From a virus: 59,361 nucleotides of DNA. Of this stretch, positions 4,357-57,751 are shown one piece after another. Position 1 is the first letter of the stretch, and each line of letters begins with the position of its first letter. The stretch is from the IMG/VR virus record IMGVR_UViG_3300010391_000134, positions 1 through 59,361 of that record. One strand, written 5' to 3'. The notes under the pieces were generated by a model. It ran no database searches. It saw only the letters and a list, made by a program, of their open reading frames with translations, and was not told the DNA's origin. Position numbers and translations under genes: made by a program.

Positions 4357-4359
4357 GGT

Positions 4360-5157: not shown

Positions 5158-5346
5158 TCAAGTCCTACAATGAGCGCAACGCCATTCCTGACGCACGGGA
5201 TCGTACCGAGTTTGTTTCGCTTCACAAACGGCACAGCGCGGTTTCGATCGCGGCATTCGACAAATATGCCCCGCATAATCGGGCGTACCGCAGTCAGCGC
5301 ACGGTTCAATGATTCTCCCGCGAATCGGGCGTTGCTCACTGCTCAT
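5158..5346 (-). CDS. Double zinc-knuckle protein, 62 aa
   Basis: The ATG at 5346 overlaps the upstream gene by 11 bases. The protein has three CxxC-type pairs: CADC, CAVC and CAHC, the last near the C-terminus. This is typical of small zinc-ribbon phage proteins. The following 123 bases (5035-5157) contain no gene I can support. Confidence 0.6.
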   Translation of the reverse strand: MSSEQRPIRGRIIEPCADCGTPDYAGHICRMPRSKPRCAVCEAKQTRYDPVRQEWRCAHCRT

Positions 5347-5575
5347 CACTCGGCTCCTTCTCCGGGGTGAGAGCGGCGCGGGCCTTTCGTATCCTCTGAG
5401 CGCACCGCTCGCAGACGCCGAACAGAGGACAGGAACAGGCGCTCGGCATTAGTAGATCTCGCAGTGCCTCTTCCAGCACCCGCACGCGCGCCTCGGCTCG
5501 ATCGCGTGCTTGCGCTATGATCACAAGCCCCGTTTGCATCTGGTCAGCGGTGAGCGCCTGACGGTCAGTCGGCAT
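5336..5575 (-). CDS. Small helical protein with RAALTPEK tail, 79 aa
   Basis: The protein has a predicted coiled-coil (residues 15-45, RVRVLEEALRDLL), a CxC-x5-C-x2-C cluster, then a C-terminal KARAALTPEK module. The LEEALR and RAALTPEK modules recur in the genes at 5565-6182 and 6498-6749. The gene overlaps both neighbours by 11 bases. Function unknown. Confidence 0.6.
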   Translation of the reverse strand: MPTDRQALTADQMQTGLVIIAQARDRAEARVRVLEEALRDLLMPSACSCPLFGVCERCAQRIRKARAALTPEKEPSDEQ

Positions 5576-36467: not shown

Positions 36468-36470
36468 GGC

Positions 36471-40200: not shown

Positions 40201-40288
40201 TGGGCGTCGGTGTCGCCTGCGCGATCGTCGCCAGGCCCGTCAGCAACAACACGAGACCCAGGACGACGCGCGACCGATGCAGCGTCAT
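37265..40288 (-). CDS. Secreted-type Cys-rich protein with TP repeats and LamG-like domain, 1007 aa
   Basis: ATG at 40288 overlaps the tape-measure stop (ATGA). Residues 1-25 form a Sec signal peptide (VVLGLVLLLTGLATIAQA, cleavage after AQA). Thr-Pro repeats follow at about 26-37 and 93-165, with Cys-rich blocks around 40-90. A LamG-like region covers about 250-370 (including YASLAMTYDSSRHLKTYLNG). More Cys clusters lie at 400-620, a beta-rich region follows, and a final TP repeat ends at residue 1007. A phage tail protein with a signal peptide is odd. The pattern is that of host surface proteins, so it was probably acquired from a bacterial genome. It may coat the tail tip or act on the host surface. 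Confidence 0.65.
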   Translation of the reverse strand: MTLHRSRVVLGLVLLLTGLATIAQATPTPTPTVTPTPGDCCIASEAAGCTDATCANCVCVTFGDDLCCSAHWGEGCVEQALGVCGPSCACAATPTPTRTPTPTKTKTPTPTKTVTPTRTRTPTPTPSGPTPTKTVTPTPTKTFTPTGTLTPTPINSECRDCVTHTPTPAPPTRTFPGTLTPTATGATATITPTPFASPPPGCAAQMVIHRGNNNLTNSGLGGGANNLTTNNGGPTFITSPKVEGSHAMAFALASGHYASCSLGTCVNTNPPGPFTFACFLDSSTNRSMVIGETIANDSSQGGFRLQWIVHTDSPTSGGSAEGTVISSGGTSSRAESTGTSRTGSYASLAMTYDSSRHLKTYLNGHLDGSKTVSSLSPYAPAPVGNIFALGDPAAAHSIDGDLDLCIIDPRVAQSATDLCATIRCGPDRAACACNGLNPTRYLPCSGNADCGGVALCTKGTCSGLDYGTCVGGANGGDACRVATQGTDCPGSSLGCQLCTLPACNAPCSGPTPTATPTVSPSAAPTAPPVTNGGFLTFRGASTTTTTYYDAVEDAQQVLARQEFILPYDGRIVNLYVNCPTGPIINGEQAYSFLKNSVAQPELTCSLRDGALSCSDTNMSGVVDFLAGQELVLRSVPTQRCRGGANDRAVCTVASQCPSGTCPAVSTGTCYMTAALTKPDGSAYPSVLGAGPASNSNPNAPSFCGDEGGLGLHCSAIFAGEAQYIVPTACTLNGLAIGLSGTIASDKGPIAFTVANITTGLDVGLRVDLSAGDRGALTQTCTEGCAVSAGDRLTVRYDILSGTGFTLVVHHRFTCTGGGQVYHMAFRGNAQGTGTGGNAGFFAGTHDAWSYCGSGDRTCAIRVPRTGILRRFYAARVSTSTGVLTPPADVDNFTICHGAFGTTPTCSSDLHLSMDSSHSLISVTNIDEAVNEGDLLQVRLQPVTTDSNASLAADLEIAPGPTATGPTITPTPTATVTPTPTPTPTVTPTPTLTATPTLTPTPTVTSTP
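37268..37401. repeat. TP-coding tandem repeat, C-terminal
   Basis: Short repeats based on GTCGGCGTCGG (plus strand) encode the Thr-Pro tail of the 1007-aa protein. They are GC-rich and slippery, so copy number may vary between isolates. Confidence 0.6.
39720..40010. repeat. TP-coding tandem repeats, N-terminal
   Basis: Irregular repeats of the GTCGGCGTCG type encode several Thr-Pro blocks in the N-terminal third of the same protein. The boundaries are approximate. Confidence 0.6.
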
Positions 40289-43200
40289 AGTGACCTCGGC
40301 GTTGAAGCGATCGCACCGCGGAGCTTCCGTGCGAGCTCCGCCACGACACGATCGCTCACGATCCCGCGGTTCGCCGCCGCCTCCATCTGCGGCTGCAGAC
40401 GCGCCGCCAGCGTCTGTACGTCGTCGAGATTGATCCGTCCGTTCACCTCGATCGGGATCGTGATCGCGTTGTGCATCGCGACGAGGATGTTGCCGACGCC
40501 ACCACTCCGTGCCGGCGGTGGCATCATGATGAGCGGCTCGGGCCGCAGCGGGCGATAGGCCTCGAGCGCACCCGCGCGCGTCGTCCCACCTTCGGCCGCG
40601 AGCAGGCGGCGCATCGCCTCCAAGAAAATCCGCGGCAGATCGGCGATCGGCGCGATCACCTCCGGCTGTTGCTCCGCCACCCACGCCAGTGTCTTCTTCT
40701 CCGCCACGCCTCCCGTCTTGAAGCCGAGAATCTGCTGCACAAGACCGGGATTCGCGATCTTGGCGGCCAGCGCCCCCACCACCTCGTTGAAGACTTCGGC
40801 GTTGGACAGCGCCTCTGGGAAGTTCGTCTGCACGGCCGCCACGAGCCGCTGGAGGAACGCCTGATGCGGATCGGGCTTCTGAATAGACTTGAGTGTCGCC
40901 AGGCCCGCTGCGTCGAGGAATCCGAGCTCCGAGAGGCCCTTGAATGTCTCGCCGGTCGTCTTCAGGCCCGCCAAGTTCACCTGGATGCCTGCCTGCGATG
41001 CGGGCGTGAGCCCGAACATGCCGGGTCCCGTGGCACCCGTGGCACCGGTTGGTGGTGGTGGTGGCGGCGTGACGGTACTGCCCTGCCCCCGGAGCAAGCC
41101 GACAATCGTTTGGAGTTCTGTGAGGCTCAGGGCCGCGATGTCCGCGAGGTTTACCTCGGTGGCGCTCATGGCGCCGAGTTTCGTCGTGAGCTCCATGTGC
41201 CGCGCTTCGAGCAGCGCGTTCCCTTCGCCCTTGATCCACCGAAGATACGCCCCGAGCTGCTCGTTGACCTCATCGATCTGTCTCTCGGCACGCCGGTCGG
41301 TCCTGCGGATGGCGTCGTTGTTGTCGAGTATGCTCTGGTTGATGACGTCGAGCCGGACGTTGGCATCGGCTTGGAGCTTCCGAATCGCCTCCTGATCCGC
41401 AGTCGCCTGCGTCTGCAGATCGACGATCTGCTGCGTCAGCGCCGGGAGGTCTGCCGTCTTGGTCGTCGCCGTGCCGACGATCCGATTGAGGGCGCCGGTC
41501 ACGCGATCGTACAGTGCGCGGAAGGCGTCGCTCGAGGGCAGCATCCCGGCCGCCTGTCCTGCGCCGAGCAGCGCCGGCCCGAGTTGATTCAGCTGCGCCA
41601 CGGCGTCGGCACGTTGCTGCTCGGCAATCGGTCCCTCGCCAGTCGGGAAGCCCTTCGTCTGTATCTCCGCCGCGGCGTTGAAGAGCGCGATCTGCTTGTC
41701 GAACTTGGCCTGAATAAGCGCGAACTGTTCGCCGGGTAGGAGCGGACTCCCAGAGCCGAGTTGAATCGACTCGAGTGTCGACTTCGTCTGATCGAGGATG
41801 CTCTTCCACGACTGCGCGATGGTGTTCTGCTTCTGCAGGATGTTGAGTTGATCGCCGATCCGTTCGATGTCTCGCTGGCGGACGAGGATCGCCTTGTTTT
41901 CCACCTCGTCGATGAGATGCGCTTCGTCTTGGAGTTTCTCGATGCGGCGTTGGTGCACCAGATCGTGTACCGCCGCCTCCGCCTTGATCGCCTCGATCTG
42001 CGTCGTGGCATAGTTCTGCGCGAGGGTCTGAATCTCGGCGAGAGACGCGAACTGCTGGGCGAAAGTGATCGGCTGGCCGGTGATGCCACCAACGGCCGGT
42101 GTCTCGCCTGTGGGCTTGCCCATCATGGCCGTAAGATCCGCGAGGCTCGTCGGCGCCGCGCCCACCGGAAGCATCGTTGGGAAGTTCTCTTGGATCGTCT
42201 TCGTGAGCTCGCCCAGAATCAGTGGCTCGGATCGGGCGATCACCGACGGACTGGAGAGGCCGCGATGCGTAGATTGGAAGATGCTTTGATCGATCGATCG
42301 ATTAAAGGTGAGTGTCGCTTCGTTCAATCTTGCGATCTGTGTCGCGAGACCGAGTACGGTATTGTCCGTTGTGGCGAACGTGCTCGATAGATCGCGTCCC
42401 GCCTGAATCAGCTCCCGCATGAACGGTGCAAGCGTCGCCAGGGCCTCCTTCGCTTGCGACAGTGCACCCCCGATGATCGTGGTAGCTTCGGCGGTAGTGA
42501 TCTTCTTGTCGGCGAGATCGGCGATCGTCTTGTTCATCGTCGCGATGAACGGCTGCAGGACCGTCGCGTCGGCGCCAGCCTGGATGATGCCATCCCCGAA
42601 CGCCTTTGCCGTCGCGCTCTCGAGGTTGGCGAGCAGCGTGTTCTGCACATCGGTAATGAGGTTCGTCGCGGCGAGTGTTGGGTTCGTCTCGAACGGCGCA
42701 CCGCTCAGGTTTGCGAACGCGTTTTTTTGAGTGTCTGACGGCGTGAGTGCCTTGGCGAAGACGTCTTCGAGACCCGGCGCGATGATCTGCGCAGACGCCG
42801 AGACATCCGCGATGTCCTTCTTGATCTTTTCAAATAAGCGTTCGGCGTTGAATTTCCCTGATTCCATCGCGGCGTTGAAATCCTTGAGCGCAATCTCACC
42901 GGGGCGTACGCCGAGCGGCACCTGCGTATTGATGAGCTCCGTCAGACTGACGATCGTGTTCTTTAGATTGTCGGCGGAGAGCGTGCCCGCCTCGAACGCA
43001 CCGCCAAGCGACTTGAACACCAAGATCGGCGGGCCGAGATTCTCCATGGCCTTGCCGATGGCCGCCATCGTATCGGCGGCATCGAGACCACGATTCGTGA
43101 TGTTGCGCAGGAGATTGTCGAGGTTGCCGAACAGGTGCTCGTCGATCGAGGCGAGGCCCTTCTTCCCTTGCGTCTCGAAGGAAAGCAGCGCCACCTCGAA

Positions 43201-46200
43201 GGCTTTGATCTGATCGGCTTGGCGCCCCGTGAGATCTGCGATCATCGATTCTTGCGAGGCGACATCCGCTTGCGCACTCGCCTGGAACTGCTGATCGGGC
43301 GAGAGGTCCGGGAAGTTCGCCATCCCGGCGCGAATTTCCGTCTGGCCAAACGCGCGATCGTACGGCGGCGTGCCGGGACCGAAGAACGGGATGCCAGCCT
43401 TCTCGTCCATGAAGACGCGTCGCTGTTGCTGACGGAGCGCGGTGCCCTGACTCGGGATGTTGATAAGAAGCGACAGGAGCAATGGCAGGAGATCGAAGAC
43501 CGACTGGACAACCCCCAATGCACTGCCCTGTCCGTGCGTCAGTTTGTATGCGTTGTTGATTTCACCGGTGAACGAACTCCCCGTGAACATCGAACCGGGT
43601 GTCAAGTAGCCGATGGCATTCAGGGACTTGGAGCTACTAGAAAGCGCCTTGTCGAACTGATCGATGTTGAGGAACGTCTTCTGCTTGTTGAGTTGAAGAA
43701 TGTTGTTGAGATTGCCCAACACGAGTGTGAGTCCCAACAAGATCCCGGCTGTCGCTGCACCGCCGGCGACACCCGCCCCAGCTCCCGCCGCCGCTCCCAC
43801 CTCAGACGCCGGTGCGGTGACCGCCGCACCAGCGCCCGCAGCGCCCTCAAGTCCAATGGTCGCCCCGGTCAACGCCGCCTCTGCGGCGGGGATCCCTCCA
43901 GAAACAATCGAGAGGCCTGCCGCGCCTGGACCTGCCAACGCTCCGGCACTCCCAGCGAAGAACGATCCAAGCCCAGCAGCCGATCCGAATGAGGTAATCG
44001 GCACGCCGGCCGAGACTCCACCGATCGTTCCCGCTACAAGCGGTACGCCACCAAGTGTGCCTATCGCACCGGGTGCCAAGCCCCCGACACCGGCTGCGCC
44101 TGCTCCACCGAATCCAAACGACGATCCAAGAGAAGAAGTTGTCGGTCCACCGAAGAAGCCGGATACCGATGAGAGAGTCTGGCCGGTACTCAGGGCCTGC
44201 TGCCCTAGCCCAAGCAGACTCGAAGCTGCGCTTCCCGACTGTGCGGGATTGGCCGTTGCCGCGGCCTGTCCGCTTACTGAACCGAAGAGCGAACTAAAGA
44301 GCCCACCGATCGCGCTGATGCCGGCACCGGCGATCCGCGGTAAGTCTTCGAGGAAGTTCGTCTTGAACTTCAGATCGAAGTTCAGCTTGGACGCGAGCGC
44401 GTTGGCGAAGGCCTGTTGGAACGCACCCGTGATGTCAGTCACGATGGCGTGCGCGACATCCTCTCCTGTGACCTTCGCACCGGTGAGCGCCTGAGCGATC
44501 GTCTGAAAGGTCCCGCTGAAGATGTCGCCGAGATTCTTGACGGTCTTCCCGACGTTCTCGTAGGCTTTCCCGAGTGCAATCGCCGATGCGACATTCTGCT
44601 GTGCAGCGACGTTGGTCGCTTCGAGGCTCGCCTCCATCGCCTTGACTTGCTCATCCGCCGCCGCGAGATCACGAGCAGCCTTCGGCCCCTGCTCTGGGGT
44701 GGCTTCTTCAAACGTCGCTTGCGCCTCGGCTCGGATCGCCTTCAGCTTCGCGAGCTGCAGTCTGAGACTCTCGGCGGCCGCCTCGTTCGCCCGCTGTTTG
44801 CTCACGAGCAGATCGAGCTCGAGTTTGATGAGCGTCCGATCACGCGCGGCGCTTTCATCTTGCGCGCCGACGATGGTGCGCTGCGCCTCGATTAGTCCGG
44901 CTTGGTTATCGAAGTGTCGCTGTTCGGTAGTCCCCTGAGCCTGGATGATGGCGAGCTGGTCTCGCAACTGGGCAGTGACGATCGGCTCCTTGTGGGCCTG
45001 GTCCTGCGTCAGATTGATGAGCGTCTTCTTACCCGAGAGGATCGCGGTCAGCGCGGCGTACTGGCCCTGGAGCTCCTCCCTGATCTGATGCTCACGCGGA
45101 CTGATTTCATCGAGCATGCGCACCAGCGCGGGATCACGCGCCTTGCCTTGCTGATCAAGGATGCCCTGAATCGCCTTGCGCTGCGCCTCGAGGTTGCGGG
45201 CCTCTTCTTCGTTTGTCGCTATCGCAAGCCGCTGGCGATCGGCGAGAATCTCGATGTCCTTCTTGTCGAGATCGTTCTTCCGGTTCTGGAGATCGATGCC
45301 TTCCTTCTGGTTGGTAAGAGTCGGGCCTTCGACGTCAAGTCTCCGCTGCAGGAGTACGTTGGCTTTCTCGAGTTCGTTGCGTTCTGTCGTTACCGCCGCG
45401 ACACGCTTCTCGATGTTGCCCTGCATCTCTTGCGAGAGGGCGTTGAATTCCGACTGCTTGCGATTGAAGTCAGTCTGGGCCCTGTCGGCGGCCAACAGGA
45501 ACTCGCGATGTTTTTTGTACTCCTCGTTGGCTGCCCTCGCGGTGTTGAGTGCGCTTTGCGCTTGCTCGACGAGGCGGCGCGCAGGACCGCGTACGGTTCG
45601 GGAGAGGACGTCGTACTCTGCGTCCTTCGCCGTTAACATCTTCGCGTCGATGTCGGCGAGCCGCTCGCGCGCGGCCACGAGCTTCTGGTTGGCAGCCGTG
45701 ACGGCGTCCGCAAGCGCCACCGCGTGAGTCCGGTCTTCCCGATCAGCCAGTCGTTTCCGGAGCTCCGCGATCTTGCCGTACGCGCTCGACTGTTGCGTCA
45801 GGATGTCGAGTACTTGCCGTTCGGCATCGACACGCCCCTGCATGATCGTGACAGTCGACGCGACGGCGGCATGAATCGCGTCTTGCTTGCCCTGCTCGAT
45901 GACGAGGAGATCGTTGAGCGTTCGCTGGCTAACCTCGAGATCCTTGGAGGCCTTATCCTCCTTCGTTAGGTTCTCAAGTGCGGCCTTAATGAGCTCAAGC
46001 CGTCGTACCTCCGCATCGTTGCCCTCACGCGTGCGTGCAACGATCCGCTGATTGATCTGCTCAATCTGCTCATCGGTGACTCGTTGTCGTTCGCTCGCTG
46101 CGATGTCGACAACAGTGCCGACGCGACCGAGCTGCGCGGCGCGTAACTGCTTCTGTGCGGCGACTTGACCGAAGATCGCATCGGTCAACTGCTTGGTGTC

Positions 46201-48111
46201 CTGGATGGCCTGCTGCTCAGCCGGCGAGAACTCTTCAAGATGCTTCGTGAGCGCATCGATCTCGTCTCGTACGTCGCCGGCGGGCGCAGCAAGAGCAGCC
46301 ATCGCTTGGCGATGCGCAACGAGCTGCCCATGGAAAGTGTCCGCTTGCTTGATGTACGCAGCGATGCCGAGGGTGATGAGCGCGAGCCATGGGGCGACGG
46401 GCGTCTGCGCCAGCGCGAATGCGGCACCCGCTGCCGCGTCAAAGCCGGCAGCGAGTTTGATGCCGAGCGCCGTGCCCAGCGCAGCCGTTGTGCCAATCGA
46501 TGCACCAGTCAGCGCACTCGCCGCCTTGAGGCCGGCGATATAGTTCGTGATCGCACTCAGTGCCGCGGTGAACTGGACCGCGACGAGTGCCTTCAGGCCC
46601 CTCGTGAGATCGATGACTGCTTCAAGCGCCGACGCCGCACCGGCCGTCACGGAGCCTTTCAGCACGCTCGCGAGCGCACGCAGGATCGTGATTTCGACGC
46701 CGGCAACGGCACTCGCGGACTGCAGGCCTTCAACGAACTTCGAGACAAACGGGATCGCCAAGGCGAGTTTGAACGTCCCGAGGACGCCAGCGAGAATTGT
46801 GAGGCGGCTAATCCAGGTAGCAAGGAAGCCCGCCGCACTAAAGACGACGCTGCCGTAGGCACCGACCTGCGCGGTCGCGGCGATCAGTGCGCTCGTGCCC
46901 GGGCCGATGGCCGGCACCAAGCCAAGGAGGAAATCGCGGAAGGGCCCGAAGGCGCGATTCTGTCCCGCCTGGATGGCGGTCGCGATCTGGACGATCTTAC
47001 CCTGAAAGTCGAGCATCGCCGTCGACGTCCGCCCGAAGTTCGTTGCGAGTCCCGCCATGTCGGGTGCGAGCTTCGTCGTAATCGTATTCGCGAGTCTCGC
47101 GACGGAAGACAGCACGAAGGTCGCGAGAATGAGGTAGAGTTCCTTACTCGCGACGCCAGCCAATTTCGTATTGGCAGCCAAGCCCGCCAGTGAGAATCCC
47201 GCCTTGCCACTCTCGGCACTAACGCCACCGAGGACGCCCGGCAGTCCGCGCCATTCCGTCGCGAAGACGCTTGTCGCAGCACCGGCAGTGCGTGCCGTTT
47301 CCCCCAGCGTGCCGAGGGCGGTCTTCGCAGCACTCGAGATACCAGCGCCGGCGCGAAGAGCCTCGAATGCGGCCACCGCCGCTGCGCCGAGACCGCGGAG
47401 TCCCGTCATCACCGCGCTGGCCGCGAGGCCGAGTACCCGGAGGGTGCCGGCAGGATCGGCGAGCGCCTTGTTCAGGACGGCGAACGAGAGGACGGTGGCA
47501 CCGGCCGCCGTAGCGAGACCGCGGATTGAGAGTGTCCCGGCCGACCATCCGCGCACGAGGGCCACTGTCGACGCCACCGCCGCCGTCGCGGCGACACCGA
47601 TCAGGCCGAGGCTCTTGGCGGTCCCGCCTACCTCGATGCCGAGCCCCTTCGCGACAGTGCTGAGCGCCTGGAATCGCGCACCGACAGAGGCCGCTGCTTC
47701 GCGTGTCGTGCCCCAGAGCGAGGGCAGCTGCCGCCAGGCGGCGGTGAACGCCCCGACATCGGCTGTCACGGCCAGCGTGACGCCCTTCAGGCCGCTCAGG
47801 GCCGTCGTGGCGGCGGCGGCGGCACCCTCACCCCGGCGGAGTGCCGTGAAGCTCGCTGTCGCGACGGTGGCCAGTCCCTTGAGGTCGCTACCGACGGCCC
47901 CAGCGGCCGCCCGCAGCATCGCTAGCGTCGCGGTCGGCGCCGCAAGGGCCTTGTTGAGTACGGCGAGCGAGGCCACCGTCGCCGTCGCGACAGCGGCCAT
48001 CTCGCCGATGGTCTTGATCGTCGAGCGGAAGTTGCGGTCGAAGTCCTGGGTGTTCAGGGTGAGGCGGACCGCTACCTGATCGACGACCGCTGGGTTGCCG
48101 CCGGGATCCAC
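40285..48111 (-). CDS. Tape measure protein, 2608 aa
   Basis: GTG at 48111 is directly adjacent to the stop of the chaperone fusion. Very long, alanine-rich, with TM-like hydrophobic patches at about 330-480 and 1400-1600 and extensive coiled coil in between, as usual for tape measures. An N-terminal segment is duplicated: AVLNKALAAP near residue 50 and AVLNKALADP near residue 211 begin two similar stretches of about 100 residues. At roughly 0.15 nm per residue, the known rule for siphoviruses, the tail would be near 390 nm, which is exceptionally long. Confidence 0.85.
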   Translation of the reverse strand: MDPGGNPAVVDQVAVRLTLNTQDFDRNFRSTIKTIGEMAAVATATVASLAVLNKALAAPTATLAMLRAAAGAVGSDLKGLATVATASFTALRRGEGAAAAATTALSGLKGVTLAVTADVGAFTAAWRQLPSLWGTTREAAASVGARFQALSTVAKGLGIEVGGTAKSLGLIGVAATAAVASTVALVRGWSAGTLSIRGLATAAGATVLSFAVLNKALADPAGTLRVLGLAASAVMTGLRGLGAAAVAAFEALRAGAGISSAAKTALGTLGETARTAGAATSVFATEWRGLPGVLGGVSAESGKAGFSLAGLAANTKLAGVASKELYLILATFVLSSVARLANTITTKLAPDMAGLATNFGRTSTAMLDFQGKIVQIATAIQAGQNRAFGPFRDFLLGLVPAIGPGTSALIAATAQVGAYGSVVFSAAGFLATWISRLTILAGVLGTFKLALAIPFVSKFVEGLQSASAVAGVEITILRALASVLKGSVTAGAASALEAVIDLTRGLKALVAVQFTAALSAITNYIAGLKAASALTGASIGTTAALGTALGIKLAAGFDAAAGAAFALAQTPVAPWLALITLGIAAYIKQADTFHGQLVAHRQAMAALAAPAGDVRDEIDALTKHLEEFSPAEQQAIQDTKQLTDAIFGQVAAQKQLRAAQLGRVGTVVDIAASERQRVTDEQIEQINQRIVARTREGNDAEVRRLELIKAALENLTKEDKASKDLEVSQRTLNDLLVIEQGKQDAIHAAVASTVTIMQGRVDAERQVLDILTQQSSAYGKIAELRKRLADREDRTHAVALADAVTAANQKLVAARERLADIDAKMLTAKDAEYDVLSRTVRGPARRLVEQAQSALNTARAANEEYKKHREFLLAADRAQTDFNRKQSEFNALSQEMQGNIEKRVAAVTTERNELEKANVLLQRRLDVEGPTLTNQKEGIDLQNRKNDLDKKDIEILADRQRLAIATNEEEARNLEAQRKAIQGILDQQGKARDPALVRMLDEISPREHQIREELQGQYAALTAILSGKKTLINLTQDQAHKEPIVTAQLRDQLAIIQAQGTTEQRHFDNQAGLIEAQRTIVGAQDESAARDRTLIKLELDLLVSKQRANEAAAESLRLQLAKLKAIRAEAQATFEEATPEQGPKAARDLAAADEQVKAMEASLEATNVAAQQNVASAIALGKAYENVGKTVKNLGDIFSGTFQTIAQALTGAKVTGEDVAHAIVTDITGAFQQAFANALASKLNFDLKFKTNFLEDLPRIAGAGISAIGGLFSSLFGSVSGQAAATANPAQSGSAASSLLGLGQQALSTGQTLSSVSGFFGGPTTSSLGSSFGFGGAGAAGVGGLAPGAIGTLGGVPLVAGTIGGVSAGVPITSFGSAAGLGSFFAGSAGALAGPGAAGLSIVSGGIPAAEAALTGATIGLEGAAGAGAAVTAPASEVGAAAGAGAGVAGGAATAGILLGLTLVLGNLNNILQLNKQKTFLNIDQFDKALSSSSKSLNAIGYLTPGSMFTGSSFTGEINNAYKLTHGQGSALGVVQSVFDLLPLLLSLLINIPSQGTALRQQQRRVFMDEKAGIPFFGPGTPPYDRAFGQTEIRAGMANFPDLSPDQQFQASAQADVASQESMIADLTGRQADQIKAFEVALLSFETQGKKGLASIDEHLFGNLDNLLRNITNRGLDAADTMAAIGKAMENLGPPILVFKSLGGAFEAGTLSADNLKNTIVSLTELINTQVPLGVRPGEIALKDFNAAMESGKFNAERLFEKIKKDIADVSASAQIIAPGLEDVFAKALTPSDTQKNAFANLSGAPFETNPTLAATNLITDVQNTLLANLESATAKAFGDGIIQAGADATVLQPFIATMNKTIADLADKKITTAEATTIIGGALSQAKEALATLAPFMRELIQAGRDLSSTFATTDNTVLGLATQIARLNEATLTFNRSIDQSIFQSTHRGLSSPSVIARSEPLILGELTKTIQENFPTMLPVGAAPTSLADLTAMMGKPTGETPAVGGITGQPITFAQQFASLAEIQTLAQNYATTQIEAIKAEAAVHDLVHQRRIEKLQDEAHLIDEVENKAILVRQRDIERIGDQLNILQKQNTIAQSWKSILDQTKSTLESIQLGSGSPLLPGEQFALIQAKFDKQIALFNAAAEIQTKGFPTGEGPIAEQQRADAVAQLNQLGPALLGAGQAAGMLPSSDAFRALYDRVTGALNRIVGTATTKTADLPALTQQIVDLQTQATADQEAIRKLQADANVRLDVINQSILDNNDAIRRTDRRAERQIDEVNEQLGAYLRWIKGEGNALLEARHMELTTKLGAMSATEVNLADIAALSLTELQTIVGLLRGQGSTVTPPPPPPTGATGATGPGMFGLTPASQAGIQVNLAGLKTTGETFKGLSELGFLDAAGLATLKSIQKPDPHQAFLQRLVAAVQTNFPEALSNAEVFNEVVGALAAKIANPGLVQQILGFKTGGVAEKKTLAWVAEQQPEVIAPIADLPRIFLEAMRRLLAAEGGTTRAGALEAYRPLRPEPLIMMPPPARSGGVGNILVAMHNAITIPIEVNGRINLDDVQTLAARLQPQMEAAANRGIVSDRVVAELARKLRGAIASTPRSL

Positions 48112-49040: not shown

Positions 49041-49889
49041 TTACTGCAGACGGATGCCGTTGAAGAGGACGCGCTCCCCGACGACGATCTCTCCCCCGCT
49101 CGAATGCGGGCTCGTGATCGTGTAGCCGAAGAGATCGAACGTGCAGGAGACGTCGATGATGCCTCCGGCGCGCAGCGTTTCTGTCCACTGGCCCTTCGCC
49201 TGGACGTTCGGCATGTCGTGGATGACTTGCCCCCCGTTCAGGAAGTCGGCGACGCCGAGCAAATGGAAGCGCGGCGACTGCGAGGTGCCGAGGGCGTAGC
49301 GGGAGTAGAGCACCTTGACGATCGGATTCCCCGTCGTCGGCAGTGTCTTCCAGCCCTCACCCGAGAGCACGATCGACGTGCCGTCCGGGACGGAGCTGAT
49401 CCACGCGTAGTTGAGCGTGGTGTTGAGTGCCGCCGTGGTGTCCGAGATGACCATGTCGTTCACGGACCAGTTGGCGTTCGACGTGACCGCCGACTGCGTG
49501 CGTGAATTGGCCGACGACGCGACGATGGCATAGAACGCCTGCGCGGCAGTCGCCGGGACGTTGTACGGCGGGATGCCGCCGAGACCGAGATACGCGGCGA
49601 GCGGTGAATAGGAGTGCAGCATGACACCGAACTCCCCGGCGAGTGTCGTGACGGCCTGGTACTGCAGGACCGATGGGATGCCGCCCGTCAGCCGGAAGAA
49701 GTCCTTCGTCACGCTGATCGATGGCGAATCGTCGGCAACGGCTCCCATGTGGCTGAAGCCCGCCGGCGGCGACCCGACGTCGATCCGCACTGTGGGAGTC
49801 CAGGCGGTCCCAGCCGGCGCGTACAGCAGATGCTCCAGCGCCATCGTCACTTCCTCTGGCTGGATGGCGTTTACGATTGTGTTGCTCAT
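49041..49889 (-). CDS. Major tail protein, 282 aa
   Basis: ATG at 49889 has a GGAGGA Shine-Dalgarno. The size and beta-rich composition fit a tail-tube protein, and so does its place immediately upstream of the chaperone pair and tape measure. N-terminal MALEHLLYAPAGTAW is near the start, and the C-terminal half alternates strands. It forms the stacked tail tube. Confidence 0.7.
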   Translation of the reverse strand: MSNTIVNAIQPEEVTMALEHLLYAPAGTAWTPTVRIDVGSPPAGFSHMGAVADDSPSISVTKDFFRLTGGIPSVLQYQAVTTLAGEFGVMLHSYSPLAAYLGLGGIPPYNVPATAAQAFYAIVASSANSRTQSAVTSNANWSVNDMVISDTTAALNTTLNYAWISSVPDGTSIVLSGEGWKTLPTTGNPIVKVLYSRYALGTSQSPRFHLLGVADFLNGGQVIHDMPNVQAKGQWTETLRAGGIIDVSCTFDLFGYTITSPHSSGGEIVVGERVLFNGIRLQ

Positions 49890-49924: not shown

Positions 49925-50341
49925 TCACGCGCGCCGCACCATGCCGAATGTCGAGAAGCCGATGAAAAACACCGGCTGTTCGTTGGCGTTGTAGTAGTGT
50001 CCGGGCTCGTGATTCGCGGTCACGAACGTGTCGTAACTGGGCAGCGGGATCGTTTGATGGTGCAGCAGCTCCATCGCCAGCGAGGCGCGATGTGCGGCAC
50101 TGCTGACAACGGTGTCGCGGAGCAAGATGCGGAAGCTCGGATGCGATGCCGGATCGCGGGAATCGATGGGAATCGAGTCGCTCACGTAGAGCGTCGCGAC
50201 TGCGGGCGTCGCTGGCAGGCGATCGAAGAAGAGCGAGCGACGTTGCGTGCCCATCCCGTGACTCTCGAGATAGGCGATCATCTCCTGACCAAAGAGCCAG
50301 GGACGGATACGGCTTTGTGGACCCGTGGGTGCGGCCGACAC
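49925..50341 (-). CDS. Tail terminator protein, 138 aa
   Basis: GTG at 50341. The layout of an initial helix, MIAYLESHGMGT, LFFDRLPATP, strand-rich middle and FRILLRDT resembles phage tail-terminator/minor capsid proteins that cap the tail tube. It lies between head-joining genes and the major tail protein, as expected. Confidence 0.6.
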   Translation of the reverse strand: MSAAPTGPQSRIRPWLFGQEMIAYLESHGMGTQRRSLFFDRLPATPAVATLYVSDSIPIDSRDPASHPSFRILLRDTVVSSAAHRASLAMELLHHQTIPLPSYDTFVTANHEPGHYYNANEQPVFFIGFSTFGMVRRA

Positions 50342-50347
50342 GGTCGA

Positions 50348-50560
50348 TCACCGGTTCTGCCCGACCAGGATCTCGTCGATCCGTGGCGACGGACAGGGAT
50401 GGAGGTCGTGCTCGTTGGCGAGCTTCCGTGACTGGCGTGTGTGCAACATAATCGGGTAGCCGTCCTGCCATGTGATCTCGACGGTCCCGAAGAAGCTCTG
50501 ATCAGAGAGTTGAATGATCTCCCTAATCGCTCGCCTGAGCAGCTGCTCCCGCGAGAGCAT
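50348..50560 (-). CDS. Small DUF2292-like protein, 70 aa
   Basis: ATG at 50560 with a GGAGAGGAG Shine-Dalgarno. It overlaps the glycosyltransferase gene by 38 bases. Residues 10-40 (REIIQLSDQSFFGTVEITWQ, then DG-x-P) resemble the DUF2292 pattern of small strand-rich proteins. Function unknown. Confidence 0.55.
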   Translation of the reverse strand: MLSREQLLRRAIREIIQLSDQSFFGTVEITWQDGYPIMLHTRQSRKLANEHDLHPCPSPRIDEILVGQNR

Positions 50561-53500
50561 CGCCGGGACACTCCTCTCCTGCTGGTATTCTGGAGCTGCC
50601 CAGCGCAAAAAGCGCGGCGCCGTTCGCCTGCCCGGTCGCTACCGATGTCGCCGTCGCATCGGGCAAGACCGTATGCCGCTGCCGTACCCCGGCGAGAGGA
50701 TCGAGTCGTTCGTACATGAGGATGCCGGCTCGCGCCATGTAATCTTTCACCTCGCCGCGGTGGGCGAACCAGCGCCGTTCGGGCTCCCGCTCCACCCGTC
50801 CGAGCCCGAGCGGGCTGCGGCTGTACTCGGCCACCCAGGCCATCTCAAACGGCAGTGCCCATCCCGGCTGCACCTCGAGGCCCTTGCTGGCGAGCCAGCG
50901 GAGCGCGTCCTGGTAGATCCGGAACGCATCGTCGTGCCAGGGCGCCTTCGCGTCCGCGTAGCGCTCCAAGTAGAGCATGCAGCCGTTCCGAATGTGGGCG
51001 AGCGCCTTTCCGTCGAGCTCGCCGCTATTCCGCTCCGCTCGCCACATGGCGAGATTGAGATAGTCCCGCATGACGAGGAACGGGCCCTTCAGGCGCTCGG
51101 GATGCTCACGGCGATCCTGATTCAAGAGTGGCAAGTTGCGCCGCACCGCCTTCGCGCGGCGGATCTCCTCGTCCTCGTAGCCGTAGTGCGCGATCTGTGA
51201 TTCGTGGAGTCGGTAGACGGGCTCGATGTTGACGTTCAGCTCGACGCCGGGATCTTCGTGCAGCTTGCCCCACCACCGGTAGCCGCGATCGGCGCGGAAG
51301 AGCCGAACCGGGTACTCCGGCTCGACCTTGCGCGCCTGATCAATCACGAGCTGATTCTGCGGGATGGAGTAGCCGTTGAAGAACGACGATTCGAGGTAGC
51401 GACGGAGGAACAGGGCTTTGCTCATACGCTCATCAGCGTCAAGCGTCAGCACCCACTCTGCATCCACACCTTCGAGGGAGAGGTTGCGCGCCTCGCCGAA
51501 GCCGATCTCCCCCTCGCCGACGCCGATACCGGGATGCTCTGAGATGACGAGCCGCGGCCAGTACTGGCCCGCGAATTCCTTCAGAATGTCGCGCGTCGTG
51601 TCGGTCGTGTTCTTGTCGACGCAGATGTGGATCTCGTCGACGACGCCGACCACCGACTGCAGGCACTTCCGGATGTCGTTCGCCGCGTCCTTCACGATCA
51701 TGCAGAGGGCGATCCGCTGAAACGGCCGCTCAGTCATCCAACGACGACGATAGTTGAGAGTGCCCGTCGCATGGTTCGGGCGCTTCGTGTAGCTCACGAC
51801 CCACCAGCCGATGATCTCATTCCGTGGCGTCACCTGGTGGAGCATGAACTCGAGCTTCAAGTCTTCCTTGGCCCCGAAGAGCTCGCGCAGATCACGATAC
51901 TTGAAATCCTGAATGTGATGCCGGACGGTGGCGAGCGATGGCGTCGTGCCGTAGGACAGCGATTCCCAGGGCCCAGAAGGCACCGACAGGATGACGCGGC
52001 CGCCGTTTCGTACGCGCGCCTCGAGGCCGTCGATGAACGCAGTCGGATCGAGTTGGTGCTCGAGGATCTCGCCGGCGAAGATCGCATCGTAGTCGCGATG
52101 ACCTCGGTGAACAGCCATTGGATTAAAATCAGTTGTAGCGTCCGCAATCCAACAGCTCGCGCGTTCGCTCCACCCTTGCTTGTCAAGAAACGCGTTCGCG
52201 TTGCCGACGAGCGCGGGCGAGAAATCGACACCGTGAACGTGGAGATCCTCCTCGCGGTACTTGAGCACGTGGCCCATGAGGCCGCCGGCGCCGCAGCCGA
52301 CGTCGAGGACGCGACGCATGCCTGGACCCGGCGGCGGCAGGTGGCGCGCCATCTGTGCCCATCGACCGGTGCGGGCCTCCCACCCAGTCCGCTGGGCAGC
52401 GTCCTTGATGAAGTAGTCGTCGGGATCCTCGTGATGATGAAGGAGGTAGTCGGCGGACTGCTTCTCGAGATCCTCGTAATGCTCCGCCTTCGCCATTTCG
52501 TGTGCCGCGACGATCGCCGAGTTGTAGATCAGCCCTTCACAGATCCGGTGCCCTTTCGTCCTCACCCGCTCCTCGAGTTGCGCGTACGCCCGCGCTTCCC
52601 ACTCGAGCGCGATGTCCTTCCATTGGTGGTGCTCCTCGACGTGCGCCTCGCCCATGCGGATCAGCCGGGCGCGCTCGAACTCGTTCGCCAGTACTTCGAC
52701 TGTCCGATCGACGAAGGCCCGCGTGTAGAGCGGATCGTGCGGCAAGCGATGATCCAGGACGTCGATGCCACCATAGGGAATCGCCTCGGGCAGCGCGAAG
52801 TCGTGTGTCGTGATGACGGGCACACCAAGCGCCATGGCCTCCATACCGGCGATGAATCCCACCTCGGGAAAACGCGTCGGATAGAGCATCAGCGTCGATG
52901 ACTTGAGCGCCTTCGCGAATCCCGCCTTCGTGAGCGCGCCGAGGTTCGTGACACCCTCCGTCTGCTCCATCAGCTGATCGAGTCGCTCGTAGTACGCGGC
53001 GAGCTCGCGATTCACTTGTGGAATCTTCGAGGAGTCGTAGCCACAGACGACGAGCTCGAGCGCGGGATCGATCGCGCGGAGCTTCGGCCACACCTCCATG
53101 AGAAGAAAATCGAGACCGCGCTCCGGTCGCGAGGCGTAGATCATCCGTTTCGGATTGCGCGTGATCCCTTGCGCGTGATGGCGGAGCAGGCTCAGGTCGA
53201 CGCCGTTGCGTGTCGGCCACAGGATCTGATCGAGACGCTCGTTCCAATCCTGCTGCCGGTGCGCGGGTGGCTTGAGGGCGCGGATGAGCGCTGCCTGGTA
53301 CGCCGAGACGGGCATGACCTGATCAGAGAATGCGCCGAAGAACGCGATGAACTCCGCCGAGGGTTCCGTCGGGACGTCGTGGCACCAGAGCCAGCGGAGA
53401 CTCGCGCGGAGCGGCAGCCCGAGCGCCTGGTAGGCTCGCGAGACGATGAAGAGATCGAACTGCTGGCGTGGTGCCGTCGCGTAGAGTGTCTGCACGTCGC

Positions 53501-53699
53501 GGTACTCGACGTTGTCGTAGGTGCCGGGCTTGTCACACACGCAGTAGAGGGTGACTCGGTTCCCTAGCCGCGCGAGCTCGCGCGACATGAACCAGGCGGC
53601 GCTTTCGGAGCCGCCGAGCGACTTATCGGCGATCGGCCGGCCGTCGAAGCTCATCCCTTGGCAGAAAAAGGCAATGTCCAATTTGAACGATTCGCTCAT
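50523..53699 (-). CDS. Three-domain glycosyltransferase-methyltransferase-glycosyltransferase, 1058 aa
   Basis: Residues 1-400 fit a GT-B enzyme of the GT4 type: SLGGSESAAW at 27-36, RPERGLDFLL at 191-200 and a PEVGFIAGMEAMALGVPVIT donor-binding stretch at 278-297. Residues 440-640 fit a class I SAM methyltransferase with VLDVGCGAGG at 464-473 and GEILEHQLDP at 543-552. Residues 660-960 fit a GT-A family 2 enzyme: CMIVKDAAN near 666 and a LDADER metal-binding motif near 753-758. It is encoded between the head-neck and tail-terminator genes, so it may glycosylate a virion protein and methylate the glycan. I recall no well-known phage protein with this exact architecture. Confidence 0.8.
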   Translation of the reverse strand: MSESFKLDIAFFCQGMSFDGRPIADKSLGGSESAAWFMSRELARLGNRVTLYCVCDKPGTYDNVEYRDVQTLYATAPRQQFDLFIVSRAYQALGLPLRASLRWLWCHDVPTEPSAEFIAFFGAFSDQVMPVSAYQAALIRALKPPAHRQQDWNERLDQILWPTRNGVDLSLLRHHAQGITRNPKRMIYASRPERGLDFLLMEVWPKLRAIDPALELVVCGYDSSKIPQVNRELAAYYERLDQLMEQTEGVTNLGALTKAGFAKALKSSTLMLYPTRFPEVGFIAGMEAMALGVPVITTHDFALPEAIPYGGIDVLDHRLPHDPLYTRAFVDRTVEVLANEFERARLIRMGEAHVEEHHQWKDIALEWEARAYAQLEERVRTKGHRICEGLIYNSAIVAAHEMAKAEHYEDLEKQSADYLLHHHEDPDDYFIKDAAQRTGWEARTGRWAQMARHLPPPGPGMRRVLDVGCGAGGLMGHVLKYREEDLHVHGVDFSPALVGNANAFLDKQGWSERASCWIADATTDFNPMAVHRGHRDYDAIFAGEILEHQLDPTAFIDGLEARVRNGGRVILSVPSGPWESLSYGTTPSLATVRHHIQDFKYRDLRELFGAKEDLKLEFMLHQVTPRNEIIGWWVVSYTKRPNHATGTLNYRRRWMTERPFQRIALCMIVKDAANDIRKCLQSVVGVVDEIHICVDKNTTDTTRDILKEFAGQYWPRLVISEHPGIGVGEGEIGFGEARNLSLEGVDAEWVLTLDADERMSKALFLRRYLESSFFNGYSIPQNQLVIDQARKVEPEYPVRLFRADRGYRWWGKLHEDPGVELNVNIEPVYRLHESQIAHYGYEDEEIRRAKAVRRNLPLLNQDRREHPERLKGPFLVMRDYLNLAMWRAERNSGELDGKALAHIRNGCMLYLERYADAKAPWHDDAFRIYQDALRWLASKGLEVQPGWALPFEMAWVAEYSRSPLGLGRVEREPERRWFAHRGEVKDYMARAGILMYERLDPLAGVRQRHTVLPDATATSVATGQANGAALFALGSSRIPAGEECPGDALAGAAAQASD

Positions 53700-53701
53700 C
53701 C

Positions 53702-54115
53702 CTACCCCTTCAACGCTTCACGCGTCGCAACCTGGACTCGCTCAGGCAGCACGCTGTGGTTGAACCGCGCTGCGCGCGAGAGAAATCGCGATCCGCGCGC
53801 CCCCTCCGGCGTGGTCTCGGCGCCCGGCTGATCCTCATTCGGCGGCCGCTCGTGCACCTGGACGGCGTAGGGAGCAGTCGGGCCGCCCGCGACGACGAGC
53901 ACGGACGTCGCGCCATCCGTCGTTCCGTCGTCGACGACGCTGGTCGTGCGCTGGAGATTGCCGGTGATGACCGGCACGTTGGCGCGGCCACGATCGGCGA
54001 TGGCCTCGGCAGCGTCGTGCACGGCGCCAGGCTGTGCGGCCAGCACCGCCCGCCGACGCATCTCGAGCCGGCTGGCGAGATCGGCGAACGCGGCGTTGAA
54101 AGGGCGATCCGCCAC
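53702..54115 (-). CDS. HK97 gp10-like neck/tail-completion protein, 137 aa
   Basis: ATG at 54115. The VPVITGNLQR motif (residues about 47-56), the PYAVQVHE stretch and the C-terminal GSRFLSRAAR segment are the signature of HK97 gp10-like proteins, which join the neck and tail. Confidence 0.75.
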   Translation of the reverse strand: MADRPFNAAFADLASRLEMRRRAVLAAQPGAVHDAAEAIADRGRANVPVITGNLQRTTSVVDDGTTDGATSVLVVAGGPTAPYAVQVHERPPNEDQPGAETTPEGARGSRFLSRAARFNHSVLPERVQVATREALKG

Positions 54116-54118: not shown

Positions 54119-54505
54119 TCAAATCCCGTCGACGATGTACGCGGTGTAGAGCACGATGCCCGCGTCGGCGTCGATTTCGGGCTCGAAACGATTCACGCGG
54201 CCGCCCTCGAGAATGAGAACGCCCTGTGCGGTCACGCCGTGCTCCAGGCGGTCGTCGATCTTGACCCCGCAGTCTGGAGGCAAGTTCACTGCCCAGTTGG
54301 CTTGTTGCTCGCGACTGGTCGCCGTGATGAGGCGCGCCCGGGATACGGTGATGTAGCACGGCACGTTCTCCACGACTTCGCCGTCGGTCGGATTGCCCTC
54401 GAGCGTCGGTGTCGCGCCAGCCCGCACGAGACGGATCCGATGGACGAGCGTATCCTCAAGAAAGGCGCGCCACTCCGGCGGCAGGATCTTGCGCGTTGCC
54501 TCCAT
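54119..54505 (-). CDS. Head closure protein candidate, 128 aa
   Basis: ATG at 54505 overlaps the upstream stop by one base (TGATG). Beta-rich, Gly- and Asp-rich. In siphovirus order, the position between adaptor and neck protein is that of the head-closure (stopper) protein. Assignment is by gene order and composition. Confidence 0.55.
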   Translation of the reverse strand: MEATRKILPPEWRAFLEDTLVHRIRLVRAGATPTLEGNPTDGEVVENVPCYITVSRARLITATSREQQANWAVNLPPDCGVKIDDRLEHGVTAQGVLILEGGRVNRFEPEIDADAGIVLYTAYIVDGI

Positions 54506-55095
54506 CAGCCCGAGACATTCCCGCGGATGAGGCGCCGCGCGCCCTTGTAGCTTCCAAGCTCGTCCCAGACCGCTGGTGCGAGATCCATGTGGACATCCGC
54601 GTATCCGCTCGATTGCGAGAGCCGCGTCCCACTCGAGGAGCCACGAATGCCTCGGTACTGCTCGTCACGCGAGCGATCGAAAGGACGACTGAGGAGATAG
54701 GCTGCCTGAATACAGACGGCCTTGCGGACGTGTAGCCGCTGCTGGCGGAGGTACACGTCGGTCTCGAGCCAAGTAAGGTATGCCGGATCAGTTCTCACCG
54801 ACTCGCTCCAGCCGAGGCTCTGTGCACGGGGGAATTCGAGGAGCTGCTCGATGAAGATCTTCGATCCGAGCCAATTCTGCGCATCGATCAGCCGTGTCGC
54901 CTCGAGCAGCGCACGTTGCCGTTGCTCGATACCCGCGACCTCCCATGCCGCGACGTCCTGGATGTGGAAACGGACGAGCGAGTCGGCTCCCGGCGTCAGC
55001 GGGTCGGTCGTCGTATCGTCGGCGTGCGTGATGTAGCAGTTGGCAGTGGAGCCACCCCACGTCGCATCGAGGGTGAGCTCAGGCGGTGTGCTCAC
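54505..55095 (-). CDS. Head-tail adaptor (DnaT-like domain), 196 aa
   Basis: GTG at 55095, overlapping the previous gene by 17 bases. The N-terminal NCYITHADD pattern with an AT-(R/W)-x-(I/L)-D helix, then a LLEFPRA segment, fits the putative DnaT-like/adaptor family common in tailed phages. It connects portal to neck. Confidence 0.65.
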   Translation of the reverse strand: MSTPPELTLDATWGGSTANCYITHADDTTTDPLTPGADSLVRFHIQDVAAWEVAGIEQRQRALLEATRLIDAQNWLGSKIFIEQLLEFPRAQSLGWSESVRTDPAYLTWLETDVYLRQQRLHVRKAVCIQAAYLLSRPFDRSRDEQYRGIRGSSSGTRLSQSSGYADVHMDLAPAVWDELGSYKGARRLIRGNVSG

Positions 55096-55405: not shown

Positions 55406-56599
55406 TTACGGCGTGTTGAGCTGGGCCAACTGCGACCAGCGCGTCTGGGCCATGCCCTTTTCGTTCCGGAGCTCCATCGTGTAGGTCCCTGCGACGAAGC
55501 CCTTCTGCGCCATGCCGGTCCTCGCGACGTCTTCGTAGTGGAACGAGGACGCCGTGAGCGGAGCCATGGCGATACGTCCCGAGGCGATCATCACGGCACG
55601 ATTGCCCGGCATCCACGGATTCAACTGAATCCGATAGGTGCCGTACGTGCCGTCGTAGATGTCGACCCGGTTGGTGAACACCCGATCATCGGGCACGCTG
55701 CGGGCGCGGCTCGAGTTGAGCTGATCGATTCGCTTCTTCACCTGCGAGCCGCAGATGATGGCATCGCAGTCCGTGCCGCCGAACTTCCAAGCCTTCTCGA
55801 CCATGTTCCCGAGCTCGGCCTCGAAATCGCCGATCGGTGAGCCCGCACTTGAGGGCGCCGAGATGTTGTTGGTGGAGATCCACTGGATGAGGCCGCGCAT
55901 GGTGCGCACGACACTCGAACTCGCCATGGTGCTGCCGGAGATGCGGCCGCGAATCGCTGCCTTCTCGAGATCGCGGAGTGCTTCCTTCAGCTTCTTCCCG
56001 AGCTGGTAGTCCTTCTCGGACACGATCCCGCCGAGCTTGCGTGTCGCTTCGGCGATGTCCGAGATGATGATGTCCTTCTTGAACGTCTGGACGATGTTGT
56101 TGAGGCGGCTCCGGGTCTTGCTGGTGTCGATCACGACGTCGGCACCTTCGAGCGCGGCATCGGAGATCACGACGATCTCTTGTCCGGACGCGAAGGAGCT
56201 AGCGCTCGTGGCGGCAAACGCCCGGCTGATGGTGATGTCGTTGCCGCTGATCGCCGTGATCTGGAACTGCTCCGGGACGGTATCGGCGACATTGATGGAG
56301 GCGTCGGGCGCTTCGAGGATCATCCCGACTTGGAGGTAGGCGGCCTGCCCGCCCGTGATGGTGATCGTGTCCGTACCCGTCGCGTTGGAGGCGACGTTGG
56401 TGCTGCTCGTGATGAGGTTCGGGCCGAGCTCGTCCTCGAGGAATTCGTGGAGTGTGCTCGTCGCGGCGTCCATCGAGTCGCCGACGAGATCGAGGAACGG
56501 TGTCTCGTACCGCGAGATCATCGTGACGGTGCCGGAGACGTCTTCTGCCGTCTCCGCCATCACGCCGTTGGTGTATTGTGCGAGTCCCGTGAATGGCAT
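55406..56599 (-). CDS. Major capsid protein (DUF5309 family, HK97 fold), 397 aa
   Basis: ATG at 56599 with an AGGGGG Shine-Dalgarno. The start AQYTNGVMAETAEDVSGTV, then TPFLDLVGD and LHEFLEDELGPN (residues about 7-60), is the DUF5309 major capsid signature. The C-terminal part contains the long beta and P-domain regions typical of HK97-fold capsids. Scaffold and cysteine-rich genes lie upstream and joining genes downstream. Confidence 0.85.
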   Translation of the reverse strand: MPFTGLAQYTNGVMAETAEDVSGTVTMISRYETPFLDLVGDSMDAATSTLHEFLEDELGPNLITSSTNVASNATGTDTITITGGQAAYLQVGMILEAPDASINVADTVPEQFQITAISGNDITISRAFAATSASSFASGQEIVVISDAALEGADVVIDTSKTRSRLNNIVQTFKKDIIISDIAEATRKLGGIVSEKDYQLGKKLKEALRDLEKAAIRGRISGSTMASSSVVRTMRGLIQWISTNNISAPSSAGSPIGDFEAELGNMVEKAWKFGGTDCDAIICGSQVKKRIDQLNSSRARSVPDDRVFTNRVDIYDGTYGTYRIQLNPWMPGNRAVMIASGRIAMAPLTASSFHYEDVARTGMAQKGFVAGTYTMELRNEKGMAQTRWSQLAQLNTP

Positions 56600-56695: not shown

Positions 56696-57751
56696 TCAGG
56701 CGCTCGGTTGACTCGCCCGTTTGGCTTCGTTCAGCTGACGTTCCAGCCGCAGTCGTTCTGCTGCGTCTCGGGGTTGGGCATGTCCCTGCCGCGCAACGCG
56801 GTCGTCGACCGCCTTGAGCTCACCCTCGAGTCGTTGGACCTTGCGGTCGCGCGGCTCGGCGGGCACCGTTCCCCGTGCTCCCTGCGCCCCGGACCCACCA
56901 TTCGGCGACAGCGGCTTCACGAAGTCGGCGGGAAACTCCGCCTTCAGCGCCGCGTCGATGTCGGTGGTTAGCTCACCTTCCCGAGTCCGGTACCGGAAGG
57001 TGTCGCTCTCCGCGTCGTATTCGAGCCGCGACTCGTAGACGGGGAGATGGTAGGCGGGATTGATCACGCCGAGCTTCGTCAACGCGCCTAGAAGCACGTT
57101 GCGCTTCGAGGTCATGATCGCCCGTGTCTCAGCGGCCTCGCGTTTCTCGCGTTCGGCCTTGATCTCTGTCGTCAGCTGCTCAGTGCTCTTGGCCTGATCA
57201 GCTACTTGCTTCTCGAGTGTGCTGACCTTCTGATTGTGCGAGTAGCCTTCCCGGCTCATGCGTCGCCATAGGGCGGCCGCGAGCTCGTTCTTGGCGTACT
57301 CCTCGGGCACCTCGTCGATGCGCGCCACCGTCTTGAAGGGATCGTCTGGGTCCCCATCGGGGCCCTGGGGCTTGGTCAGCTTCTCGATGACCGACTTGAT
57401 CGGCTCGAATTCGCTGCGGAGCCGAGCGTTCTCATCCTCGGCTTTCTTGAGGCGCCCCTCGGAAGCGGCGAGCTTGCCGTCGTACTTCTTCTCGAGCTCG
57501 AGCTTGATGTCCTTTGCCTTCGCGTTCAGGCGTTCCTGATCCGCGGCGGAGAATGGTGCTGGCGATCCCGGTGGAGGTGGATCCCCTGGCGCCGGTGAAG
57601 GCGGCACTGGTGCAGGCGCTGGCGGATCGTCGCCTTCGCCGCCCGAGGGAATCGCAAGGCGTTTGCCCACGGGGCCCTCGAGGTACGGCGTGCCGTGCGT
57701 GGGTCGGCTGACTATCCAGCCGCTCGGAAGCTCACTCGTGATCGTGTGCAT
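56696..57751 (-). CDS. Scaffolding protein, 351 aa
   Basis: ATG at 57751. Residues 40-70 are a proline-rich linker, residues 75-200 a long coiled coil rich in Lys and Glu, and the C-terminus a charged helical region. The profile and location next to the capsid gene fit a capsid scaffold. Its ribosome binding site lies in an arm of a 13-bp inverted repeat. Confidence 0.7.
   Translation of the reverse strand: MHTITSELPSGWIVSRPTHGTPYLEGPVGKRLAIPSGGEGDDPPAPAPVPPSPAPGDPPPPGSPAPFSAADQERLNAKAKDIKLELEKKYDGKLAASEGRLKKAEDENARLRSEFEPIKSVIEKLTKPQGPDGDPDDPFKTVARIDEVPEEYAKNELAAALWRRMSREGYSHNQKVSTLEKQVADQAKSTEQLTTEIKAEREKREAAETRAIMTSKRNVLLGALTKLGVINPAYHLPVYESRLEYDAESDTFRYRTREGELTTDIDAALKAEFPADFVKPLSPNGGSGAQGARGTVPAEPRDRKVQRLEGELKAVDDRVARQGHAQPRDAAERLRLERQLNEAKRASQPSA

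Follow-up and report, generated by a model that had tools for sequence, protein, structure and literature searches.

The window analysed here is the complete 59,361-nucleotide stretch of the IMG/VR virus record IMGVR_UViG_3300010391_000134. Among its virion genes lies a minus-strand gene (50523-53699) that encodes two glycosyltransferases (GTs) and a methyltransferase in one polypeptide. In the open reading frame (ORF) analysis, the ATG was located at 53699, the stop codon ended at 50523 and the product comprised 1058 aa; the plus-strand reading of 50523-53699 contained stops. The Pfam domains followed the order GT-B, S-adenosylmethionine (SAM) methyltransferase and GT-A, and each exceeded its curated cut-off: Glyco_trans_1_4/Glycos_transf_1 (residues 188-310), Methyltransf_23/12/31 (442-609) and Glycos_transf_2 (666-771).

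By Pfam and motif counts, the GT-B domain (GT4-like) spans residues ~1-390 (52530-53699), with GGSE at 29-32, SRPERG at 190-195 and an EX7E motif (E279...E287). It is followed by the class I SAM methyltransferase domain (residues ~441-640, 51780-52379; PF13489, E=2e-14), in which motif I is intact (VLDVGCGAGG, 464-473). The GT-A (GT2) domain spans residues ~655-880 (51060-51737) and carries DADER at 754-758 and HE at 814-815. The remainder (50526-51059) is a helical region up to ~residue 1000 and a low-confidence tail (1001-1058).

An AlphaFold2 model was built from 38 family sequences (the window and its related loci) and reached a predicted local distance difference test score (pLDDT) of 83.2 and a predicted template modelling score of 0.84. 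Values of pLDDT below 50 occurred mostly past residue 1000, and all three domains were present in the model. Foldseek searches against the PDB matched the GT-B part to PimA, tll1591 and HepE, the methyltransferase part to RebM, AtmM and MitM, and the GT-A part to SunS and ThuS. RebM and AtmM are sugar O-methyltransferases. The window motif, the model and the RebM/AtmM matches define a class I methyltransferase with a Rossmann fold and a glycine-rich motif I. The profile matches of the GT-A part (GmaR 5e-40, SunS 1e-27, ThuS-like 5e-26) extended over the catalytic domain with its DxD and HE residues. Judged by these profiles, the GT-A domain groups with the GmaR/SunS-like GT2 protein and peptide glycosyltransferases.

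The sequence-only reading of this DNA had described a GT-B enzyme, a methyltransferase and a GT-A enzyme in one 1058-aa protein. Pfam, AlphaFold, Foldseek and the intact motifs agreed with this. A frame error or a spurious joining of adjacent genes was ruled out, as one open frame was kept in 100 non-redundant homologues. The conservation of the three-domain order in these 100 loci also excludes chance. Hence, the domain fusion in 50523-53699 is confirmed. The catalytic residues of both glycosyltransferases were conserved in 98 aligned homologues: R191 and E287 of the GT-B domain were found in all 98, E279 was Glu in 88 and Asp in 10, and the DxDE and HE residues of the GT-A domain were each found in 98/98. 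No membrane segment was predicted in the fusion (maximum KD19 1.56). Barnase-like matches to the linker (residues 416-451, E ~0.013) were weak and not conserved in the linkers of the homologues, and were discarded as chance.

In the window, the fusion lies downstream of the SU10-type capsid, Ad1-like and gp10-like genes and upstream of the tail terminator and a very long ORF, all on the minus strand. Read in the direction of transcription, the series starts with a coiled-coil protein without a confident family in the scaffold position (56696-57751). The major capsid protein of SU10 type follows (55406-56599; PF17236, E=5e-63; phrog_1328) and is a candidate acceptor. The next genes encode an Ad1-like head-tail adaptor (54505-55095; phrog_477, E=3e-5), a connector-region protein that neighbour clustering also placed in locus L009 (54119-54505, cluster c145) and, directly upstream of the fusion, an HK97-gp10-like neck or tail-completion protein (53702-54115; PF04883, E=0.003, below the gathering score). 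In L009, L010, L039, L175 and other loci, a homologue in the neck position likewise comes before the fusion.

On the other side, a small ORF of ~70-86 aa (50348-50608 or 50348-50560; weak DUF2292 resemblance, E=0.03) separates the fusion from the tail terminator (49925-50341; PF12691, E=9e-8). The location between a neck gene and the tail terminator, as read from the sequence alone, was thus borne out by the gp10-like gene and the PF12691 terminator. The gene after the terminator (49041-49889) has no confident family match. By position it is the probable major tail protein and a further candidate acceptor, and it is conserved as cluster c44 in L009, L010, L039 and L040. The very long ORF (40285-48111, 2608 aa) occupies the tape-measure position, an assignment by length and position only.

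Exact 8-mer pattern scans of viral and genome contigs gave nothing because the patterns were too specific, and an alignment of the GT-B domain was used instead. Hits were ranked by how similar they were to the window or the family; the relatives counted are the best 80 per list. With the GT-B alignment, most of the best 80 loci in IMG/VR carried all three domains, in this order, within a single ORF. When the alignment of the whole family was used for a second scan, the number of loci with the fusion rose to at least 142, of which 100 were non-redundant at 90% identity. The same domain order is hence found in many other viruses. Genes in these loci were called with a simple script, and PHROG and Pfam labels were transferred within clusters by hidden Markov models.

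A virion structural gene was found within five genes of the fusion in 93/100 non-redundant loci. In 76 of the 100, a recognised capsid gene was present on the same piece (73 on the same strand, three on the opposite strand). In the latter three (L037, L054 and L185), the fusion was inverted, yet still lay between capsid and connector genes. The usual placement was major capsid gene, fusion, head-tail connector genes, and it occurred with two capsid families and in at least four gene orders. The first group showed terminase, portal, head protease, cement, capsid, fusion, head-tail adaptor, Neck1, minor tail and tape measure genes. The second showed portal, scaffold, SU10-type capsid and fusion. 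In the third, which includes the window, the gp10-like neck gene was followed by the fusion, the tail terminator and the probable major tail protein. The fourth comprised large phages with the fusion near tail-sheath and tail-fibre genes. In some loci of this last group, a TylF-like O-methyltransferase gene adjoined the fusion (directly before it in L015:9375-9986 and close copies).

A reciprocal census of near relatives, starting from capsid proteins, considered deduplicated contigs that extend 5 kb or more beyond the capsid gene on its downstream side. The whole fusion was present on 30/31 and 16/16 of them (46/47 in total). The sole exception (L280) carried split pieces of the same domains. 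Moreover, the fusion tree (FastTree) split by head-module type, with seven Fitch changes compared with a shuffled minimum of 28. Pairwise distances of fusion and capsid were correlated (Spearman 0.63-0.71, 0/499 permutations). Other head genes tracked the capsid about as strongly: the values were 0.22-0.65 for capsid and adaptor, Neck1, cement or protease, and 0.80 for SU10 capsid and portal; all correlations were taken among structural genes and may partly reflect whole-genome phylogeny. The near-fixed presence and the tracking of capsid divergence point to a stable gene of the head module and not to sporadic cargo.

Split or reordered versions were also observed beside the capsid gene: in L280, L281, L065 and L067, glycosyltransferase and methyltransferase domains were distributed over separate or reordered genes. 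In Arthrobacter phage Ottawa, gp102 (L173:7339-9642, 767 aa) occupies the slot that the fusion has in other viruses, with the capsid gene on one side and head-tail stopper genes on the other. It was rejected as a glycosyltransferase, as Pfam gave no significant family.

In a tblastn search of diverse family members against 50,697 phage records, no record covered 80% of any query. There was no mycobacteriophage among the matches listed from these records, a set that does not include Corndog. In the bacterial-genome collection, five of the best 80 loci carried the full fusion. Capsid and portal or protease genes were found beside it in L089, L090 and L091, and L094 shared downstream genes with the phage loci. 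Where the context was readable (these four of the five, the fifth being L102), the loci look viral by gene content. None of the five was placed in a lipopolysaccharide or cell-wall locus, the setting that would have spoken against a phage role. L091 contains a complete head module with the fusion on a 982-kb contig of a Deltaproteobacteria metagenome-assembled genome. As the module lies inside a long bacterial contig, it is probably a prophage, and this is a possible lead to a host. L092 and L093 are bacterial GT-B/GT-A fusions without the methyltransferase, and such proteins are a possible source of the phage enzyme.

We consider it probable that the fusion is a soluble enzyme whose three activities together equip one of the phage's own virion proteins with a short methylated glycan. 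The GT-A domain would attach the first sugar to a head, neck or tail protein, at a Ser, Thr, Cys or other side chain. To this sugar, the GT-B domain would add the next one or more, and the methyltransferase would cap the chain by O-methylating the terminal sugar. Which sugars are used, how the steps are ordered and what the phage gains (a stable particle, masking or adhesion) are inferred. The capsid protein would be the most likely acceptor, followed by a cement, neck or tail-tube protein. A protein acceptor is favoured because the closest relatives of the GT-A domain, GmaR and SunS/ThuS, act on proteins or peptides. GmaR transfers N-acetylglucosamine (GlcNAc) to flagellin (PMC9638930), and the PDB titles of SunS and ThuS name glycosin S-glycosyltransferases. 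Further support comes from the intact catalytic residues of the window protein, the fixed domain order and the recurrent head or connector placement in several viral lineages.

Several observations weigh against this proposal. Co-location and co-inheritance show a coupling to the head module, not a chemistry or a target. The census started from capsid alignments of fusion carriers and therefore covers near relatives only. At the corresponding place in five distant isolates with related capsids (~27-31% identity), namely RDJL Phi 1, KPP23, CRP-6, Vibrio 1.022.O and Lietuvens, there was no annotated gene of the size of the fusion. In the lineage of the window, the fusion is not beside the capsid gene but at the boundary of neck and terminator genes. 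The ends of the capsid and tail proteins showed no Ser/Thr-rich tail that could serve as an acceptor. Motif I of the methyltransferase, intact in the window protein, was degenerate in many of the 98 aligned relatives, and methylation may therefore be lost or altered in some lineages. Finally, the virion glycan, its acceptor and the activity are, for this group, predicted from genes alone. The earlier proposal of a methylated multi-sugar chain on a virion protein was sustained in part. The virion target gained support from the location in 93/100 loci and the kinship of the GT-A domain; the methylation lost some, given the erosion of motif I. The multi-sugar chain on a virion protein is putative and unproven.

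Among the alternatives, the one that survives best is that the fusion is moron-type cargo at an insertion hot spot of head and tail genes. It would then act on the host surface, to mask receptors or exclude superinfection, and its place would say nothing about its target. The homing-endonuclease genes of NUMOD4-HNH type directly upstream of the fusion in ~15 loci, the three inverted copies, the other cargo genes nearby and the distant isolate relatives without the fusion at that place speak for this reading. However, nearly all sampled members of the capsid clades have the fusion (46/47), and it is inherited together with the capsid gene, unlike sporadic cargo. It has no membrane segment, and no flippase or lipid-carrier family was found nearby (25 of 37 families listed; 68 neighbouring cargo proteins). 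The GT-A relatives, moreover, act on proteins. We therefore regard the cargo explanation as unlikely.

It is less probable still that the enzyme acts late in infection on a host protein, or in the synthesis of a free or stored glycan. Its place would then reflect late expression only, since genes of a late operon need not act on virions, and the GT-B part does resemble GT4 enzymes with small or lipid acceptors (PimA, tll1591). This does not fit well with the fixed position and the co-inheritance with the capsid across lineages, nor with the GT-A relatives of known acceptor, which are protein-directed. Glycosylation of phage DNA, by analogy with phage glycosyltransferases that modify DNA bases (PMC12619734) and other viral enzymes that hypermodify DNA, is very improbable, because the fusion sits with virion genes and not with replication genes, and because none of the window genes tested was recognised as base-modifying (families matched: Band_7, RecT, AAA, YqaJ, SLT and Laminin_G; many genes of the left half had no match).

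The preferred explanation, glycosylation of the particle itself, has precedents. Between its portal and protease genes, Corndog (cluster O) has separate genes (gp35-gp38) for an O-methyltransferase, two glycosyltransferases and a GlcNAc-transferase; the authors of that study proposed that the products modify the capsid (PMC4351075). According to the papers citing Freeman et al. 2023 (PMC12363180, PMC12619734), phage glycosyltransferases glycosylate capsid and tail-tube proteins of mycobacteriophages, and the virions of Che8, Corndog and Myrna are glycosylated. The likeness to Corndog consists in an O-methyltransferase and several glycosyltransferases encoded among head genes as proposed capsid modifiers. 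By description, the only level compared, Corndog differs in having four genes instead of one polypeptide and another place in the head module.

The closest parallel in a single polypeptide is A064R of the chlorovirus PBCV-1, a biochemically verified GT-GT-MT enzyme (MT, methyltransferase) acting on the capsid glycan (PMC7019647, PMC9614988). It also combines two glycosyltransferase domains with a methyltransferase, which caps the terminal sugar of the major capsid protein glycan. However, A064R is shorter (638 aa), has the order GT-GT-MT instead of GT-B, MT, GT-A, and carries a distinct glycosyltransferase family in the middle. It belongs to a eukaryotic algal virus with an unrelated capsid and adds to an N-glycan core that other enzymes have made. 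The fusion is thus predicted to work like A064R but, given the different domain order, not to be a member of its type, and the parallel is probably independent.

WsaE of Geobacillus stearothermophilus is a trifunctional MT-GT-GT enzyme for an S-layer glycan; it is likewise soluble, with one methyltransferase and two glycosyltransferase domains, and its methylation caps the chain (PMC2943079). It differs in domain order, in acting on an S-layer glycan on a lipid carrier and in its cell-surface gene cluster. The GmaR/SunS-type GT2 enzymes, to which the GT-A domain is closest among solved structures, target flagellin (GmaR) and a peptide (SunS). They lack the GT-B and methyltransferase domains, and GmaR instead has TPR, linker and antirepressor domains. 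In the ctKR88-type podovirus (MW202524), a protein with GT-A and GT-B domains is encoded one small gene after the capsid gene (3147-5432), and further glycosyltransferase and methyltransferase genes follow. Here, the glycosyltransferase order is reversed, there is a TPR-like spacer and the fusion has no methyltransferase domain.

No paper describing a GT-B/MT/GT-A phage fusion was found in the open-licence literature searched. Nevertheless, the initial statement that this is not a described phage system was too strong in view of the Corndog genes, the glycosylated mycobacteriophage virions and A064R. Virion glycosylation by glycosyltransferases of a structural operon (Corndog) and a GT-GT-MT fusion acting on a capsid glycan (A064R) are already known. 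What is new is the domain order, the single gene, its fixed place in the head modules of tailed phages and its wide distribution.

To our knowledge, virion glycosylation is documented in few cultured phages. In contrast, many uncultivated lineages have the enzyme at a fixed place beside capsid genes, and it was whole in none of the isolate-phage records searched. This suggests that decoration of the particle with a methylated sugar chain by the phage itself is commoner among tailed phages than isolates indicate. If so, glycosylated capsids would be common in environmental phages and would affect particle stability, adsorption and recognition. The fusion would also offer a means, complete in one gene, of attaching a methylated glycan to a protein, and it makes the question of capsid glycosylation directly testable by co-expression. 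In a broader form, which we hold to be only somewhat better supported than its opposite, the trifunctional enzyme is a core head-module component of several large uncultivated tailed-phage lineages. Their capsid or connector proteins would be glycosylated, and often methylated as well, as a regular step of assembly, and in some cases radical-SAM, sulfotransferase or further sugar-modifying enzymes would take part. The glycosylation of virions would then be old, common and almost entirely missed by isolate collections.

Other genes recurred near the fusion. Radical-SAM-like proteins were present in 18/100 non-redundant loci (L044, L061, L183, L191, L204, L226, L236 and others). Of the 68 cargo proteins sampled, 11 matched PF04055, and many radical-SAM-like proteins had a CxxxCxxC motif; a second protein-modifying enzyme of these particles is possible. 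The NUMOD4/HNH homing-endonuclease genes lie directly upstream of the fusion in L033:9474-10004, L068:9387-10010 and ~13 other loci, and in L037 the cassette of endonuclease and fusion was inverted as a unit. Both observations hint at how the gene can spread.

In the window itself, two large proteins of the tail-tip region (32571-40288; 1298 and 1007 aa) contain lectin domains of the concanavalin-A-like type (Laminin_G_3). At the contig end (57876-59330), there is a cysteine-rich ORF of 484 aa with no Pfam match and a poor coding score in the codon-usage script.

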